58,686 nt of DNA, taken from the NCBI RefSeq assembly GCF_021298855.1, contig NZ_JAJTHI010000068.1, forward strand, positions 1 through 58,686, in the 5' to 3' direction. Shown piece after piece: positions 18,784-34,008 of the stretch. Each line of letters starts with the position of its first letter. Position 1 is the first letter of the stretch. The position numbers were made by a program, and so were the translations under genes. This DNA comes from Gemmatimonas sp. GTDB taxonomy: Bacteria; Gemmatimonadota; Gemmatimonadetes; Gemmatimonadales; Gemmatimonadaceae. The notes beneath the pieces were generated by a model. That model was not told the origin of the DNA. It searched no databases and worked only from the letters and a program-made list of their open reading frames with translations.

Positions 18784-18886
18784 CGGGCTCCGGGTCCCGG
18801 AGGGCGCCAGGCCGCCAAATCGGTCAGGACCCCGAAGGTAGCAGCCGCACGTGGATTCTGACGTCGCTTCGTCAGGCCCGGAGCAC
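18784..18886 (+). ncRNA. ffs: signal recognition particle RNA, small bacterial (4.5S) type
   Basis: About 100 nt. The ends pair (GGGCTCCGGG at 18785-18794 with CCCGGAGC at 18877-18884) and the apex holds the conserved Ffh-binding domain: GGTCAGG on one side and AGCAGCC on the other. The apical stem ACC/GGT closes a loop reading CCGAA instead of the usual GGAA, which is one base longer. It binds Ffh and FtsY for cotranslational targeting of membrane proteins. A strong terminator follows at once. Its position between ltaE and dnaX agrees with SRP RNA often lying beside dnaX. Confidence 0.88.
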
Positions 18887-23475: not shown

Positions 23476-24174
23476 GTGACGGATTCCCGCCAACCCGACC
23501 GTCGAGTGAACCTTCCCAACGCAATCACCGTGGGCCGCATCGCCCTGACGCCGCTGATTGCGTGGTTGCCGTTCACGACCTCGTGGTCCGCCCGGTTGTT
23601 TGCGTTCGTGCTGTTCCTCATTGCCGCCGTCACCGACTACTGGGACGGCCACCTGGCACGGTCACGCAACCTCGTCACCGACCTCGGCCGCCTGCTCGAT
23701 CCGCTCGCCGACAAGATGCTGCTGCTGGCGACGCTCATTCCCATGTACCTGCTGCAGCGCCACCACGCCTTCGTGGAAGCGAGCGACGCGGTGTCGAGTC
23801 CGTTTCTCTTCGAACTGCCCTTCGGCAGGGTGTCATTGCCGCTGTGGATCGTGCTCGTGGTGCTGGGGCGCGAAGCCTTCATGACGGTGTTCCGGCAGAT
23901 TGCCGCCCGCCGCGGGCTGGTCATTGCCGCCATCGGTCCGGCCAAGTGGAAGACCACCTTCCAGAGCATCTGGCTCGGTGCGGCGTACTTCTGGTTCTTC
24001 GCGAGCACGCTCGCCGAGCATCGCGGATGGCTCGCCGATGGCGCCTGGCGCGCCTTCGCCCTGTTCAACGGCTTCGTGGGCGTGCTCAGCATGGTCGGTG
24101 CCGTGGCGCTGACGCTCTACTCCCTGTGGCTGTACATGCGCCGCTACGGTTGGCAGGTGCTCCGCGCGGCCTAG
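23476..24174 (+). CDS. pgsA: CDP-alcohol phosphatidyltransferase, PgsA-like
   Basis: 232 residues, GTG start. Integral membrane enzyme; probable step is glycerol-3-phosphate plus CDP-diacylglycerol to phosphatidylglycerophosphate. The CDP-alcohol motif is complete: DYWDGHLARSRNLVTDLGRLLDPLADK, with the aspartates and the glycine in register. NLPNAITVGRIALTPLIAW at the N-terminus is typical of PgsA. It is longer than most PgsA (180-200), with extra sequence in the middle (about residues 95-115). It is 36 bp after mglA. Confidence 0.85.
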   Translation: MTDSRQPDRRVNLPNAITVGRIALTPLIAWLPFTTSWSARLFAFVLFLIAAVTDYWDGHLARSRNLVTDLGRLLDPLADKMLLLATLIPMYLLQRHHAFVEASDAVSSPFLFELPFGRVSLPLWIVLVVLGREAFMTVFRQIAARRGLVIAAIGPAKWKTTFQSIWLGAAYFWFFASTLAEHRGWLADGAWRAFALFNGFVGVLSMVGAVALTLYSLWLYMRRYGWQVLRAA

Positions 24175-24207
24175 GGCCGCGGGAGGCGCGGAGCAGGGGA
24201 GACACTG

Positions 24208-24241
24208 CTCGTCGGAGGCGCGGAGCCGCGGAGGCACGGAG
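24208..24241. repeat. left 34-bp inverted repeat flanking the GxxExxY gene
   Basis: Matches the inverse of 24680-24713 at 32 of 34 positions; built from CGGAGGC words (CTCGTCGGAGGC and so on). It ends 2 bp before the GxxExxY stop codon. The segment CCTCCGACGAGC of the opposite arm is repeated at 33984-33995. Confidence 0.85.
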
Positions 24242-24243
24242 TG

Positions 24244-24642
24244 CTACGGGACGGTGTGGGTGTTGATCACGCGGTCGATGCCTTCCTTCATGGTCGAGAG
24301 GCCGAAGTTGAGGACGAGCCCCACCTCGAGCCGGGTGAAGCGCAGATAGGTCAGCAGCTGCCGTCGAAACATCGCCGAGTGTCGCTCGCAGGCCTTTACC
24401 TCCACGACGACGGCGCGATCGATGAGCAGGTCGATTCGGAAGGCCTGATCGATTCGACGTGAGCGATAGGTCAGCGGGAGCACAACCTGCCTGGCGACCG
24501 TGTGGCCGCGTCGTTCAAGCTCGTCCGCCAAGAGCATCTCGTATGTCGATTCGAACATCCCAGGGCCGACATCCCGATGCAGTCGTACGGCCGAGTCGAC
24601 GATGGATGCCGTGACCCCCACATGATGGATGATCGCTGCCAT
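24244..24642 (-). CDS. GxxExxY protein
   Basis: 132 residues. Family-defining motif GPGMFESTY is at residues about 26-34, followed by LADELERRGHTVARQVVLPLTYR, IDLLIDRAVVVEVKACE and FRRQLLTYLRFTRLEVGLVLNFG. The fold resembles a PD-(D/E)xK nuclease core (E-x-Y, DLLID, VEVKA), though activity is not established. It is flanked by 34-bp inverted repeats, 2 bp after its stop and 37 bp before its start, so gene and repeats look like one cassette inserted between pgsA and cinA on the opposite strand. Function unknown. Confidence 0.85.
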   Translation of the reverse strand: MAAIIHHVGVTASIVDSAVRLHRDVGPGMFESTYEMLLADELERRGHTVARQVVLPLTYRSRRIDQAFRIDLLIDRAVVVEVKACERHSAMFRRQLLTYLRFTRLEVGLVLNFGLSTMKEGIDRVINTHTVP

Positions 24643-24679
24643 GCCGCACGCTATGGCAAGGCGTCAGTCTGGCGTCAGT

Positions 24680-24713
24680 CTCCGTGCCTCCGGGGCTCCG
24701 TGCCTCCGACGAG
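24680..24713. repeat. right 34-bp inverted repeat flanking the GxxExxY gene
   Basis: Inverse of 24208-24241 with two mismatches. Followed by GATTCCCCGCC, also similar to the sequence after the related palindrome at 33951-34008 (AGTTCTCCCCGCC). No obvious target-site duplication outside the pair. Confidence 0.85.
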
Positions 24714-24759
24714 CGATTCCCCGCCCTTCACGCCAGCAGTTCAACGACCCGGCGGTCGC

Positions 24760-24771: not shown

Positions 24772-26052
24772 ATGAATCTGGAGATCGTCACTATCGGCGA
24801 CGAGCTGCTGCTCGGCTTCACCATCGACACCAACGCCGCGCAGCTGGCGCGTGAACTGGCGGCGCTTGGCGTGCGCATCGTGCGGCGCACGACCTGCGGC
24901 GACGATGCGGAGAGCATTCGGCAGGCGGTCAGCGATGCCCTGGGGCGCACCGGGGCGGTCATTACGACAGGCGGGCTCGGGCCCACGGCCGACGACATGA
25001 CGAAGCCGGCCATTGCCGCGATCTTCGGCAAGGGGATGCGCTTGGACACCGGCATCCTCACCGCGCTGCGTGAACGCTGGCGGAAGCGCTTCGGCCATGA
25101 CCTGCCGGTGAGCAACGAGCAGCAAGCCATGGTGCCGGAGGGGTGCACCATTCTCCCCAATCGGCATGGCAGTGCCCCCGGGATCTGGCTCGAAGATGCC
25201 CAGGGCCGGTGGGTGATCATGCTCCCTGGCGTTCCGCGGGAGATGCGCGGAATGCTGGCCGACACCGTCGTGCCCACGCTCCGCGATCGGCTCCCGGTGG
25301 GCGGCCCGGTCATTCGCAGTCGAACGTTGCGCACCGCCAACATTGCCGAGTCGGCGCTGGCCGACCGGCTGGGCGAACTGGCGCGTGGCGTCAACGGTCT
25401 GTCGCTCGCCTATCTGCCGGGGGCGGACGGCGTGGACCTCCGCCTCACCAGCTGGGACCGCGACGCGCGGGCCACCACGGTGGCGCTCGATGAGGCCGCC
25501 GCCCTCGTGCGGAGCAAGGTGTCACGCTATGTGTACGGCGAGAACGACGACGATCTGGCGGCCATCATGCTGGCCGAGTGTGCCGCCCGGAATGCCACCG
25601 TGGCCGTGGCGGAGAGCTGCACGGGGGGCATGCTCGGCATGCGGCTTACCGCGGTCCCCGGTTCCAGCCGTACGGTGCTGGGGGGAACCATTGCCTATGC
25701 CAACGCGGTAAAAACCCGTGAACTCGGGGTGTCGGCGGCACTCATCGACGAACAGGGCGCGGTGAGTGAGCCGGTGGCGCGAGCCATGGCCACCGGCGTG
25801 CGGCTGCGCTTCGGCAGTACCATCGGCCTGGGCATTACGGGCATCGCGGGGCCGGACGGCGGCACGCCGGAGAAACCGGTCGGGACCGTATGGGTCGCGG
25901 TCGATCTGGATGGTGACGTCCACGCCGTGCGCGCCGTGCTGCCGGGAGACCGGCACGAAATCCGCTGGAGAGCGGCACAGCTGGCGCTGGACCGGCTGCG
26001 CAAGGCATTCCTGCGGGAGCAGCAGTCCGAAGGCTGGACCGCCCGCGGGTGA
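24772..26052 (+). CDS. cinA: CinA family protein (NMN deamidase / competence-damage type)
   Basis: 426 residues, full two-domain form. N-terminal MoaB-like domain: MNLEIVTIGDELLLGFTIDTNA, TTGGLGPTADDMTKPAIA and IMLPGVPREMRGML. C-terminal deamidase domain: VAVAESCTGGMLGMRLTAVPGSS, GGTIAYANAVKTRELGV, GITGIAGPDGGTPEKPVGTVW. Such proteins hydrolyse ADP-ribose and deamidate nicotinamide mononucleotide in NAD salvage. A leaderless-type promoter precedes it. It lies 58 bp to the right of the GxxExxY cassette. Confidence 0.93.
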   Translation: MNLEIVTIGDELLLGFTIDTNAAQLARELAALGVRIVRRTTCGDDAESIRQAVSDALGRTGAVITTGGLGPTADDMTKPAIAAIFGKGMRLDTGILTALRERWRKRFGHDLPVSNEQQAMVPEGCTILPNRHGSAPGIWLEDAQGRWVIMLPGVPREMRGMLADTVVPTLRDRLPVGGPVIRSRTLRTANIAESALADRLGELARGVNGLSLAYLPGADGVDLRLTSWDRDARATTVALDEAAALVRSKVSRYVYGENDDDLAAIMLAECAARNATVAVAESCTGGMLGMRLTAVPGSSRTVLGGTIAYANAVKTRELGVSAALIDEQGAVSEPVARAMATGVRLRFGSTIGLGITGIAGPDGGTPEKPVGTVWVAVDLDGDVHAVRAVLPGDRHEIRWRAAQLALDRLRKAFLREQQSEGWTARG

Positions 26053-32817: not shown

Positions 32818-33906
32818 GTGTTCTCCACCTGCATTCACTGCACCGGCGATCTGGGCCGCAACGAGGCCTTCGAGACCTTTCCCGTGGGCTCCAGGCTGGC
32901 CTACGACGGCCGGCAGGGGCGCCTCTGGGTGGTGTGCCGTGGGTGTGGCCGTTGGAACCTCTCGCCGCTCGAAGAACGCTGGGAGGCCATCGAGGCCATG
33001 GAGGCGCGCTTTCGCGATACCCGGCTGCGGGTGAGCACCGACCACGTGGGGCTGGCCCGCCTGCGGGAGGGCATCGACCTCATTCGCATCGGTGAGCCAC
33101 AGCGGCCGGAAATGGCGGCGTGGCGCTATGGCGATCAGTTCGGGAAGCGTCGCCAGCGGCAGCTGCTGGTTACCGGGGCGGTGGTGGGGAGCGCCACGGC
33201 CATCATCGGCGGGGTCATCGCCCTGGGGGCCAGCGTGGGCAGCTTCGCCGGGATCTATGCCAATGGCCAGCTCTGGGACAGCCTCATTCACGGCCGGCAG
33301 AGCAAGTCCATTGGCCGCGTAGCGCTGCCCGACGGTCGTCTGGTGGAGTTGCAGCGTCGGCACGCCCGCATGAGCGCCTTCGTGCGCGAGAGCAGCCATT
33401 CACCGCTCCAGTTGCGCGTCGAGCATGCTGCGGGCTCGAGTATCGTCACGGGTGACGACGCCATGCGCATTGCCGCCCGCCTCATGCCCACGGTCAACCG
33501 CTTCGGCGGCTCGCCCAAACAGGTACAGGAGGCCGTTGAGTTGCTGGATGAGGCAGGCGATCCCTACGCGGTGCTGCTGCAGGTACAGCGGCGCAGCGGC
33601 TGGGTGCCCGGCCACGATGAGTGGGGCAAGGGCAGTTTCTGGGAAGGAAAGAACAACCGGAAGATGGTGCACAAGATCCCGGGGGCCCTGCACACGCTCG
33701 CGCCGCGCGACCGCCTCGCCATTGAAATGGCGTTGCACGAAGAGCAGGAACGCCGTGCCATGGAGGGGGAACTGCAGCTGCTCGAGCAGGCATGGCGCGA
33801 AGCGGAGGAGATTGCGAAGATCGCCGACGACATGTTCACGCCGGCTGCGGTCGAATCACGTCTCGAGACGCTGCGAGGGAAGAACGCGTCGGAGCCCACG
33901 GCGTAA
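32818..33906 (+). CDS. zinc-ribbon membrane protein, hypothetical
   Basis: 362 residues, GTG start, because the first conserved-looking feature (MFSTCIHCTGDLG) begins there. Two CxxC pairs (CIHC and CRGC, residues 5-8 and 41-44) form a likely zinc ribbon. One or two hydrophobic segments follow at about residues 118-145 (LLVTGAVVGSATAIIGGVIALGASVGSF). The C-terminal half is soluble and charged, with a helical end rich in Glu and Arg (residues about 300-350). No recognised family. The position behind a repeat-rich spacer says nothing about role. Confidence 0.6.
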   Translation: MFSTCIHCTGDLGRNEAFETFPVGSRLAYDGRQGRLWVVCRGCGRWNLSPLEERWEAIEAMEARFRDTRLRVSTDHVGLARLREGIDLIRIGEPQRPEMAAWRYGDQFGKRRQRQLLVTGAVVGSATAIIGGVIALGASVGSFAGIYANGQLWDSLIHGRQSKSIGRVALPDGRLVELQRRHARMSAFVRESSHSPLQLRVEHAAGSSIVTGDDAMRIAARLMPTVNRFGGSPKQVQEAVELLDEAGDPYAVLLQVQRRSGWVPGHDEWGKGSFWEGKNNRKMVHKIPGALHTLAPRDRLAIEMALHEEQERRAMEGELQLLEQAWREAEEIAKIADDMFTPAAVESRLETLRGKNASEPTA

Positions 33907-34008
33907 CGGAGACACGGAGACACGGAGACCTCATCAGCTTTTTCGGTAGTTCTCCGTGACTCCGTGACTCCGTGGCTCTGTGGCCTCCGACGAGCAGTTC
34001 TCCCCGCC
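33905..34008. repeat. CACGGAGA palindromic element, GxxExxY-flank relative
   Basis: Arms 33906-33928 and 33951-33973 are inverse copies at 21 of 23 positions (ACGGAGACACGGAG type). The right end CCTCCGACGAGC (33984-33995), followed by a CCCCGCC tail, matches the sequence beside the right GxxExxY repeat. It fills the spacer between two convergent genes. Confidence 0.7.

Follow-up and report, generated by a model that had tools for sequence, protein, structure and literature searches.

Inverted tandem-repeat arms enclose a GxxExxY nuclease-like gene in Gemmatimonas and many of its homologues in other phyla

Results

In the window, the whole stretch of 58,686 nucleotides of Gemmatimonas sp. (genome G000) analyzed here, the genes pgsA (23476-24174, + strand) and cinA (24772-26052, + strand) are separated by a small gene on the opposite strand (24244-24642, - strand) that encodes a PD-(D/E)xK nuclease-like GxxExxY protein of 132 amino acids. 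It is the sole gene between two inverted arms of 35 nt (24207-24241 and 24680-24714), which are complementary at 33 of 35 positions (94%) and lie 438 nt apart. The near-perfect inverted repeats noted in the preliminary description are thus confirmed, as is the tight fit of the gene between them, with 2 nt to the left arm and 37 nt to the right arm. The arms do not consist of a single sequence, being inverted arrays of the 8-nt unit CTCCGTGN with an outer cap, CTCCGACGAGC. At its full extent, the left arm, of type A, covers 24203-24241 (+ strand; model R1, 44.6 bits) and reads CACTGCTCGTCGGAG followed by three NCACGGAG-type units. Its inverted partner, of type A', covers 24680-24718 (- strand; 45.0 bits) and reads (CTCCGTGN)n and then CTCCGACGAGC. 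The stop codon of pgsA is 32 nt ahead of the left arm, and a degenerate extra repeat outside this arm (24182-24205, + strand) is 88% identical to 24214-24237. The arms were rejected as a known RNA family because they match no Rfam family; the only match among the sources searched was a bacterial small SRP RNA (RF00169, 43.8 bits) at 18789-18885 (+ strand).

Sequence databases contain many GxxExxY proteins. The family (TIGR04256/PF13366) is named for a sequence motif and, to our knowledge, has no assigned function. The window protein matched TIGR04256 with an E-value of 1.3e-32 (112.6 bits, cut-off 35) and PF13366 (PDDEXK_3) with 1.8e-33 (115.8 bits, cut-off 22). These were its only domain matches, with no HUH Y1 transposase domain among them, which agrees with its earlier assignment as a PD-(D/E)xK-like protein rather than a known transposase. 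Residues G26, G28, E31, D71, E81, K83, Q95 and Y99 were invariant in 30 of 30 homologues. E31, D71, E81, K83 and Q95 correspond to the catalytic E, D, ExK and Q of PD-(D/E)xK enzymes, and the invariant positions are those expected of such an active site. The AlphaFold model had a pLDDT of 95, and its fold matches were weak (Cas4-like SSO0001, lambda exonuclease and archaeal splicing endonuclease; best E-value 0.011). Comparison with the orthologue of the congener G048 gave identities of 65, 73 and 35% at codon positions 1, 2 and 3, which indicates that the protein is under purifying selection. Two other roles were considered and rejected: a defence gene, as PADLOC returned only sub-threshold Cas4-like similarity (E 0.002-0.02), and phage or plasmid cargo, as GxxExxY genes are nearly absent from viruses (one locus) and plasmids (8 of 72,556).

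It had also been noted that part of the repeat recurs without the gene at 33984-34008. This sequence, CCTCCGACGAGCAGTTCTCCCCGCC, is indeed part of a gene-less copy; it is not a lone fragment but the outer end of a complete hairpin (33896-33998) whose 24-nt loop is unrelated to the GxxExxY gene. The left arm of this hairpin (33896-33927, + strand) is partly degenerate and belongs to the same family as the arms of the window element, and the right arm (33952-33999, - strand; 39.4 bits) ends with CCTCCGACGAGCAGTT. A 39-nt arm profile built from 19 arms was run on G000, G048, G022 and three other genera. It gave 43 matches in G000 and four in the congener G048. G022 had none, and the three other genera together yielded a single borderline match. 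The 43 arms of G000 fall into about 24 sites and comprise, read by position, 18 complete pairs and seven further arms with a missing, extra or too decayed partner. The orientation is A..A' in all 18 pairs and the opposite in none. Only the pair in the window holds a GxxExxY gene, the other pairs having short loops that, where read, were mutually unrelated. By ORF heuristics alone, 11 of the 14 arm sites checked did not overlap a coding-like ORF. No target duplication was evident by eye at the arms of the G000 and G003 copies.

The expectation that other GxxExxY genes would carry the same repeats held in part. G000 has two more such genes, one of which (C75) lies between arms built from another repeat unit (CAGAACNGG), and the other (C20) is unenclosed and followed by three tandem hairpins.

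Enclosure was assessed with 250-nt flanks at 80 GxxExxY loci from GTDB species genomes, which were found with seven query sequences, so that the sample is biased to the GPGLLES subgroup. An inverted repeat score of at least 16 was reached by 38 of 73 GxxExxY genes and 2 of 103 neighbouring ORFs at the same loci (Fisher 6.7e-16), and a score of 18 was reached in 0.7% of displaced boxes. A common arm consensus emerged across loci, ACCACRGAG(NCACRGAG)n, arrayed as TTCACCRCRGAG(NCACRGAG)n ahead of the gene and in reverse complement behind it. Two consensus units were present on both sides of the gene at 45 of 76 loci, compared to 0 of 275 displaced boxes. A chance origin of the enclosure was therefore rejected on the basis of the neighbour-ORF, displaced-box and permuted-flank controls. 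By record title, the loci belong to Pseudomonadota, Acidobacteriota, Chloroflexota, Planctomycetota, Bacteroidota, Verrucomicrobiota, Desulfobacterota, Armatimonadota, KSB1, Sumerlaeota and others, more than ten phyla in all, and one lies on a Methanosarcinales contig (L198). Protein similarity and arm similarity were correlated (Mantel rho 0.31, 1 of 2000 permutations), which is compatible with co-inheritance and co-evolution alike and may reflect shared descent. We found no mention of enclosure of GxxExxY genes by repeats in the open-licence literature, and no match there to the arm sequences.

Gene-less families were not restricted to Gemmatimonas. When a 17-nt arm pattern was counted in 12 unrelated genomes, using the pattern read backwards as control, most genomes had a large excess (for instance 145 to 7, 82 to 2, 81 to 0 and 65 to 3). 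Of the hairpins read in the Geobacteraceae genome G065, 20 lacked a full-length gene in the loop and one (L271) was of gene size; their arms were nearly identical and their loops unrelated. In both G063 and G065, the gene-bearing pairs had the same arms as the local gene-less family. The two arms of an element were not interchangeable. In G063, 36 of 38 complete pairs combined one A-arm and one G-arm, as defined at the first linker, 18 each way round, and none of 100,000 shuffles reached this number. In 17 of 21 pairs of G065, the third unit was CTCAGAG or CTCGGAG in exactly one of the two arms. These non-identical arms give the element a polarity and a fixed stem mismatch. Within a G065 element, the two arms in fact resembled each other less (0.874) than arms from separate elements did (0.896), and compensatory pairing was accordingly rejected as the force keeping the arms.

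Most of the 15 gene-less elements read in G003, a genome of Gemmatimonadaceae, were homologous over arms and loop at unrelated sites, which implies that whole hairpins multiply. The gene-bearing elements of G003 had arms that differ from those of its gene-less family. The loops in G000, G063 and G065 share nothing, yet the arms are almost invariant, and simple copying of whole elements is insufficient to explain this pattern without loop replacement or selection on arms. Either loops were exchanged during spread, or these are old copies with selection on the arms alone.

Several arrangements were observed in addition. Gene-less elements of G003 (L345-L359) contain a second, inner hairpin, GGAACTGC...GCAGTTCC, and keep CACGGAG heptamers while the 2-nt linkers vary. 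Hairpins of a different arm family are nested in the loop of an outer hairpin in G063 (L312, L315, L319, L325), suggesting insertion into hairpin loops. G023 has 248 copies of CACRGAGNCACRGAG, against 121 of the reversed control, in expanded tandem arrays of the unit. In G037 (L210-L216, L223-L250), truncated GxxExxY pieces and arms lie inside a multi-copy element of 180-400 bp with separate ends (GTAGTGGGTCAGTTT/AAACTGACCCACTAC), at least seven copies of which are 84-99% identical; many copies of the element reach 95-99%, and several contigs terminate within it. Apparent 7-nt target duplications (AGCGGCC, AGAGTAG, GGCGCCC) occur only at these separate outer ends. This looks like capture by an insertion-sequence-type end, and the G037 element was rejected as proof of self-mobility because it has terminal repeats of its own and resembles capture by another element.

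Arms and GxxExxY genes co-occurred across 59 genomes of Gemmatimonadaceae searched for the exact pattern CACRGAGNCACRGAG. Of the 42 that have a GxxExxY gene, 18 contained the pattern, whereas all 17 lacking the gene were also free of the pattern (p 0.0011, phylogeny ignored); the other 24 GxxExxY-bearing genomes lacked the pattern searched. No association with IVP genes was seen for this pattern (p 0.48), even though such genes number 10 or more in some genomes. At the pgsA-cinA junction, for which a comparison of empty sites had been proposed, occupied and empty sites were found at the level of species. The element is present in G000 and in G048 (proteins 58% identical, cinA 84%), and in most other genera the two genes are 0 to about 60 nt apart, without the element. 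Gene-less tandem-inverted hairpins of quite different units occupy the same junction in one genus (L102/L105) and in another (L117/L120). It is a recurrent insertion place. G034 and G057 differ at another junction, where the former has a complete 7-nt-unit hairpin and the latter has none. The closest genome pair, G030/G055 (95%), showed no occupied/empty difference in the region. Gain is the simpler reading of the pgsA-cinA junction, in a comparison between species that leaves the direction of change at each site undecided.

A similar architecture surrounds an unrelated protein. In the same bacterial family, 25 of 29 23S_rRNA_IVP genes (PF05635) were enclosed, against 0 of 57 displaced boxes. 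The best repeat period of the arms was 7 in 17 of 25 cases for IVP and in only 1 of 50 for GxxExxY (p 6e-10), the latter having a best period of 8 or 9 in 37 cases. The 23S rRNA intervening sequence (IVS) of Coxiella likewise has complementary ends, carries heptamer repeats (GACAGAT) before the S23 gene in its loop, and is cleaved by RNase III (PMC4990558). At the end of the contig, the window itself (3-245, - strand, and 399-817) has a truncated gene of the 23S_rRNA_IVP family (PF05635) beside long inverted arrays of CGGCAGA-type repeats, and eight more IVP genes are located elsewhere in G000.

Discussion

There is strong reason to regard the arm-gene-arm arrangement described here as an element. 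Its recurrence across more than ten phyla suggests that such DNA elements form a widespread family, so far undescribed, that spreads inside chromosomes. The architecture of IVP and GxxExxY genes is the same although the proteins are unrelated, and the repeat period is specific to each; we regard this parallel as the strongest hint that the arms are what the protein recognizes. We give about an even chance to the proposal that the window locus represents, in gene-bearing form, a hairpin element resembling REPIN/RAYT systems or IVSs, with the PD-(D/E)xK nuclease acting on the arms. The GxxExxY nuclease could recognize the arms when folded, either as a single strand or into a cruciform, and the stem mismatch of the non-identical arms could tell it which strand to cut. 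The break, followed by host repair or replication, would then copy the hairpin into a new intergenic site, with gene-less hairpins as non-autonomous copies served in trans. Such a system would parallel a REPIN with its RAYT, or a 23S rRNA IVS outside rRNA, but with an unrelated protein. Nuclease-driven mobility, like the steps of recognition, cutting and copying just outlined, is our inference.

Other explanations must be weighed against these data. The hairpins might act at the RNA level, as useful or tolerated structures (RNase III sites or mRNA 3' ends) under selection on the arms, with GxxExxY, like IVP, as an RNA-binding or RNA-cutting companion and spread being rare. Arms that are conserved while loops are not would fit such a role, as would the mostly intergenic position of the hairpins, often directly after stop codons, the similar enclosure of IVP genes and the RNase III cleavage of the Coxiella IVS with its S23p loop gene (PMC4990558). 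We nevertheless consider it rather unlikely, since G063 and G065 retain stem mismatches instead of perfect pairing, and species-specific expansions together with empty sites suggest spread. In addition, PD-(D/E)xK enzymes are mostly DNases.

Quite improbable, in our judgement, is that the hairpins are miniature elements moved in trans by an ordinary transposase, the GxxExxY gene being a passenger between the ends. The G037 copies, with GxxExxY pieces inside the GTAGTGGGTCAGTTT/AAACTGACCCACTAC ends and apparent 7-nt duplications, are what such an origin could look like, but outer ends of this type were not seen in the other families read. Moreover, the arms co-occur with GxxExxY and not with IVP genes, and one would not expect a passenger to be enclosed by arms of a single consensus across more than ten phyla. 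Short inverted repeats are common between genes, and one may ask whether unrelated intergenic hairpins or ordinary terminators simply lie near a small gene. The neighbour-ORF and displaced-box controls, the consensus common to phyla, the fixed direction of the arms on both sides of the gene and the lack of an Rfam match make this scarcely conceivable.

If the arms are indeed acted upon by the nuclease, they would constitute the first concrete candidate substrate for GxxExxY proteins and offer a reason for their patchy distribution. The proposed element would also connect three subjects so far treated separately, namely GxxExxY genes, the S23/IVP genes and their 23S rRNA intervening sequences, and intergenic hairpins of the (CTCTGTGT)n kind, which have lacked an explanation. 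Should the nuclease drive the spread, it would represent a route of DNA mobility with no transposase, recombinase or reverse transcriptase in the element. A broader proposal is quite possible, if short of an even bet: selfish elements of the chromosome would form a large class, found in more than ten phyla, where a small protein other than a transposase (a GxxExxY nuclease with arms of 8-9-nt units or an IVP four-helix protein with arms of 7-nt units) replicates its own hairpin and gene-less copies via folded DNA or RNA, 23S rRNA IVSs being the special case noticed first.

Among known systems, REPINs are intergenic inverted doublets in many copies, whose 16-17-nt ends are invariant and whose spacer varies, and they have one dedicated gene; their recognition depends on a conserved stem mismatch, and REP arms differ from species to species (PMC3116915, PMC8266576). 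The window element family is similar in its paired inverted copies, intergenic position, many copies per genome and one dedicated gene, and the strand-specific stem asymmetry was found as well (36 of 38 pairs in G063, 17 of 21 in G065). The REP-style pairing of gene-bearing and gene-less partners put forward in the preliminary description stands as regards architecture, with about 24 sites, one gene-bearing pair and the same arrangement in unrelated genomes. It does not extend to the protein, as RAYT (TnpA-REP, REPtron) is an HUH tyrosine transposase and the window gene encodes a PD-(D/E)xK nuclease. In addition, window-type genes lie inside the hairpin and the arms are tandem 8-9-nt units. 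The REP end tag GTAG is absent from the arm consensus, and CGTC occurs in the G000 arms but not in the cross-phylum consensus.

With 23S rRNA IVSs, the element shares a small gene in a hairpin loop, complementary ends and short tandem repeats beside the gene. However, it is located between pgsA and cinA, outside rRNA, encodes a GxxExxY protein instead of the S23/IVP four-helix protein, and has units of 8-9 rather than 7 nt. MITEs of DDE insertion sequences are likewise non-autonomous and intergenic with inverted ends; here, no transposase lies between the ends, loops are often unrelated and no target duplication was evident by eye for the arms. We have not filed the window element as a REP or an IVS, because a defining feature of each is missing, nor as an insertion sequence, because the encoded protein is no known transposase. 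By the profile cut-offs, the protein itself is a full member of the TIGR04256 GxxExxY/PF13366 family.
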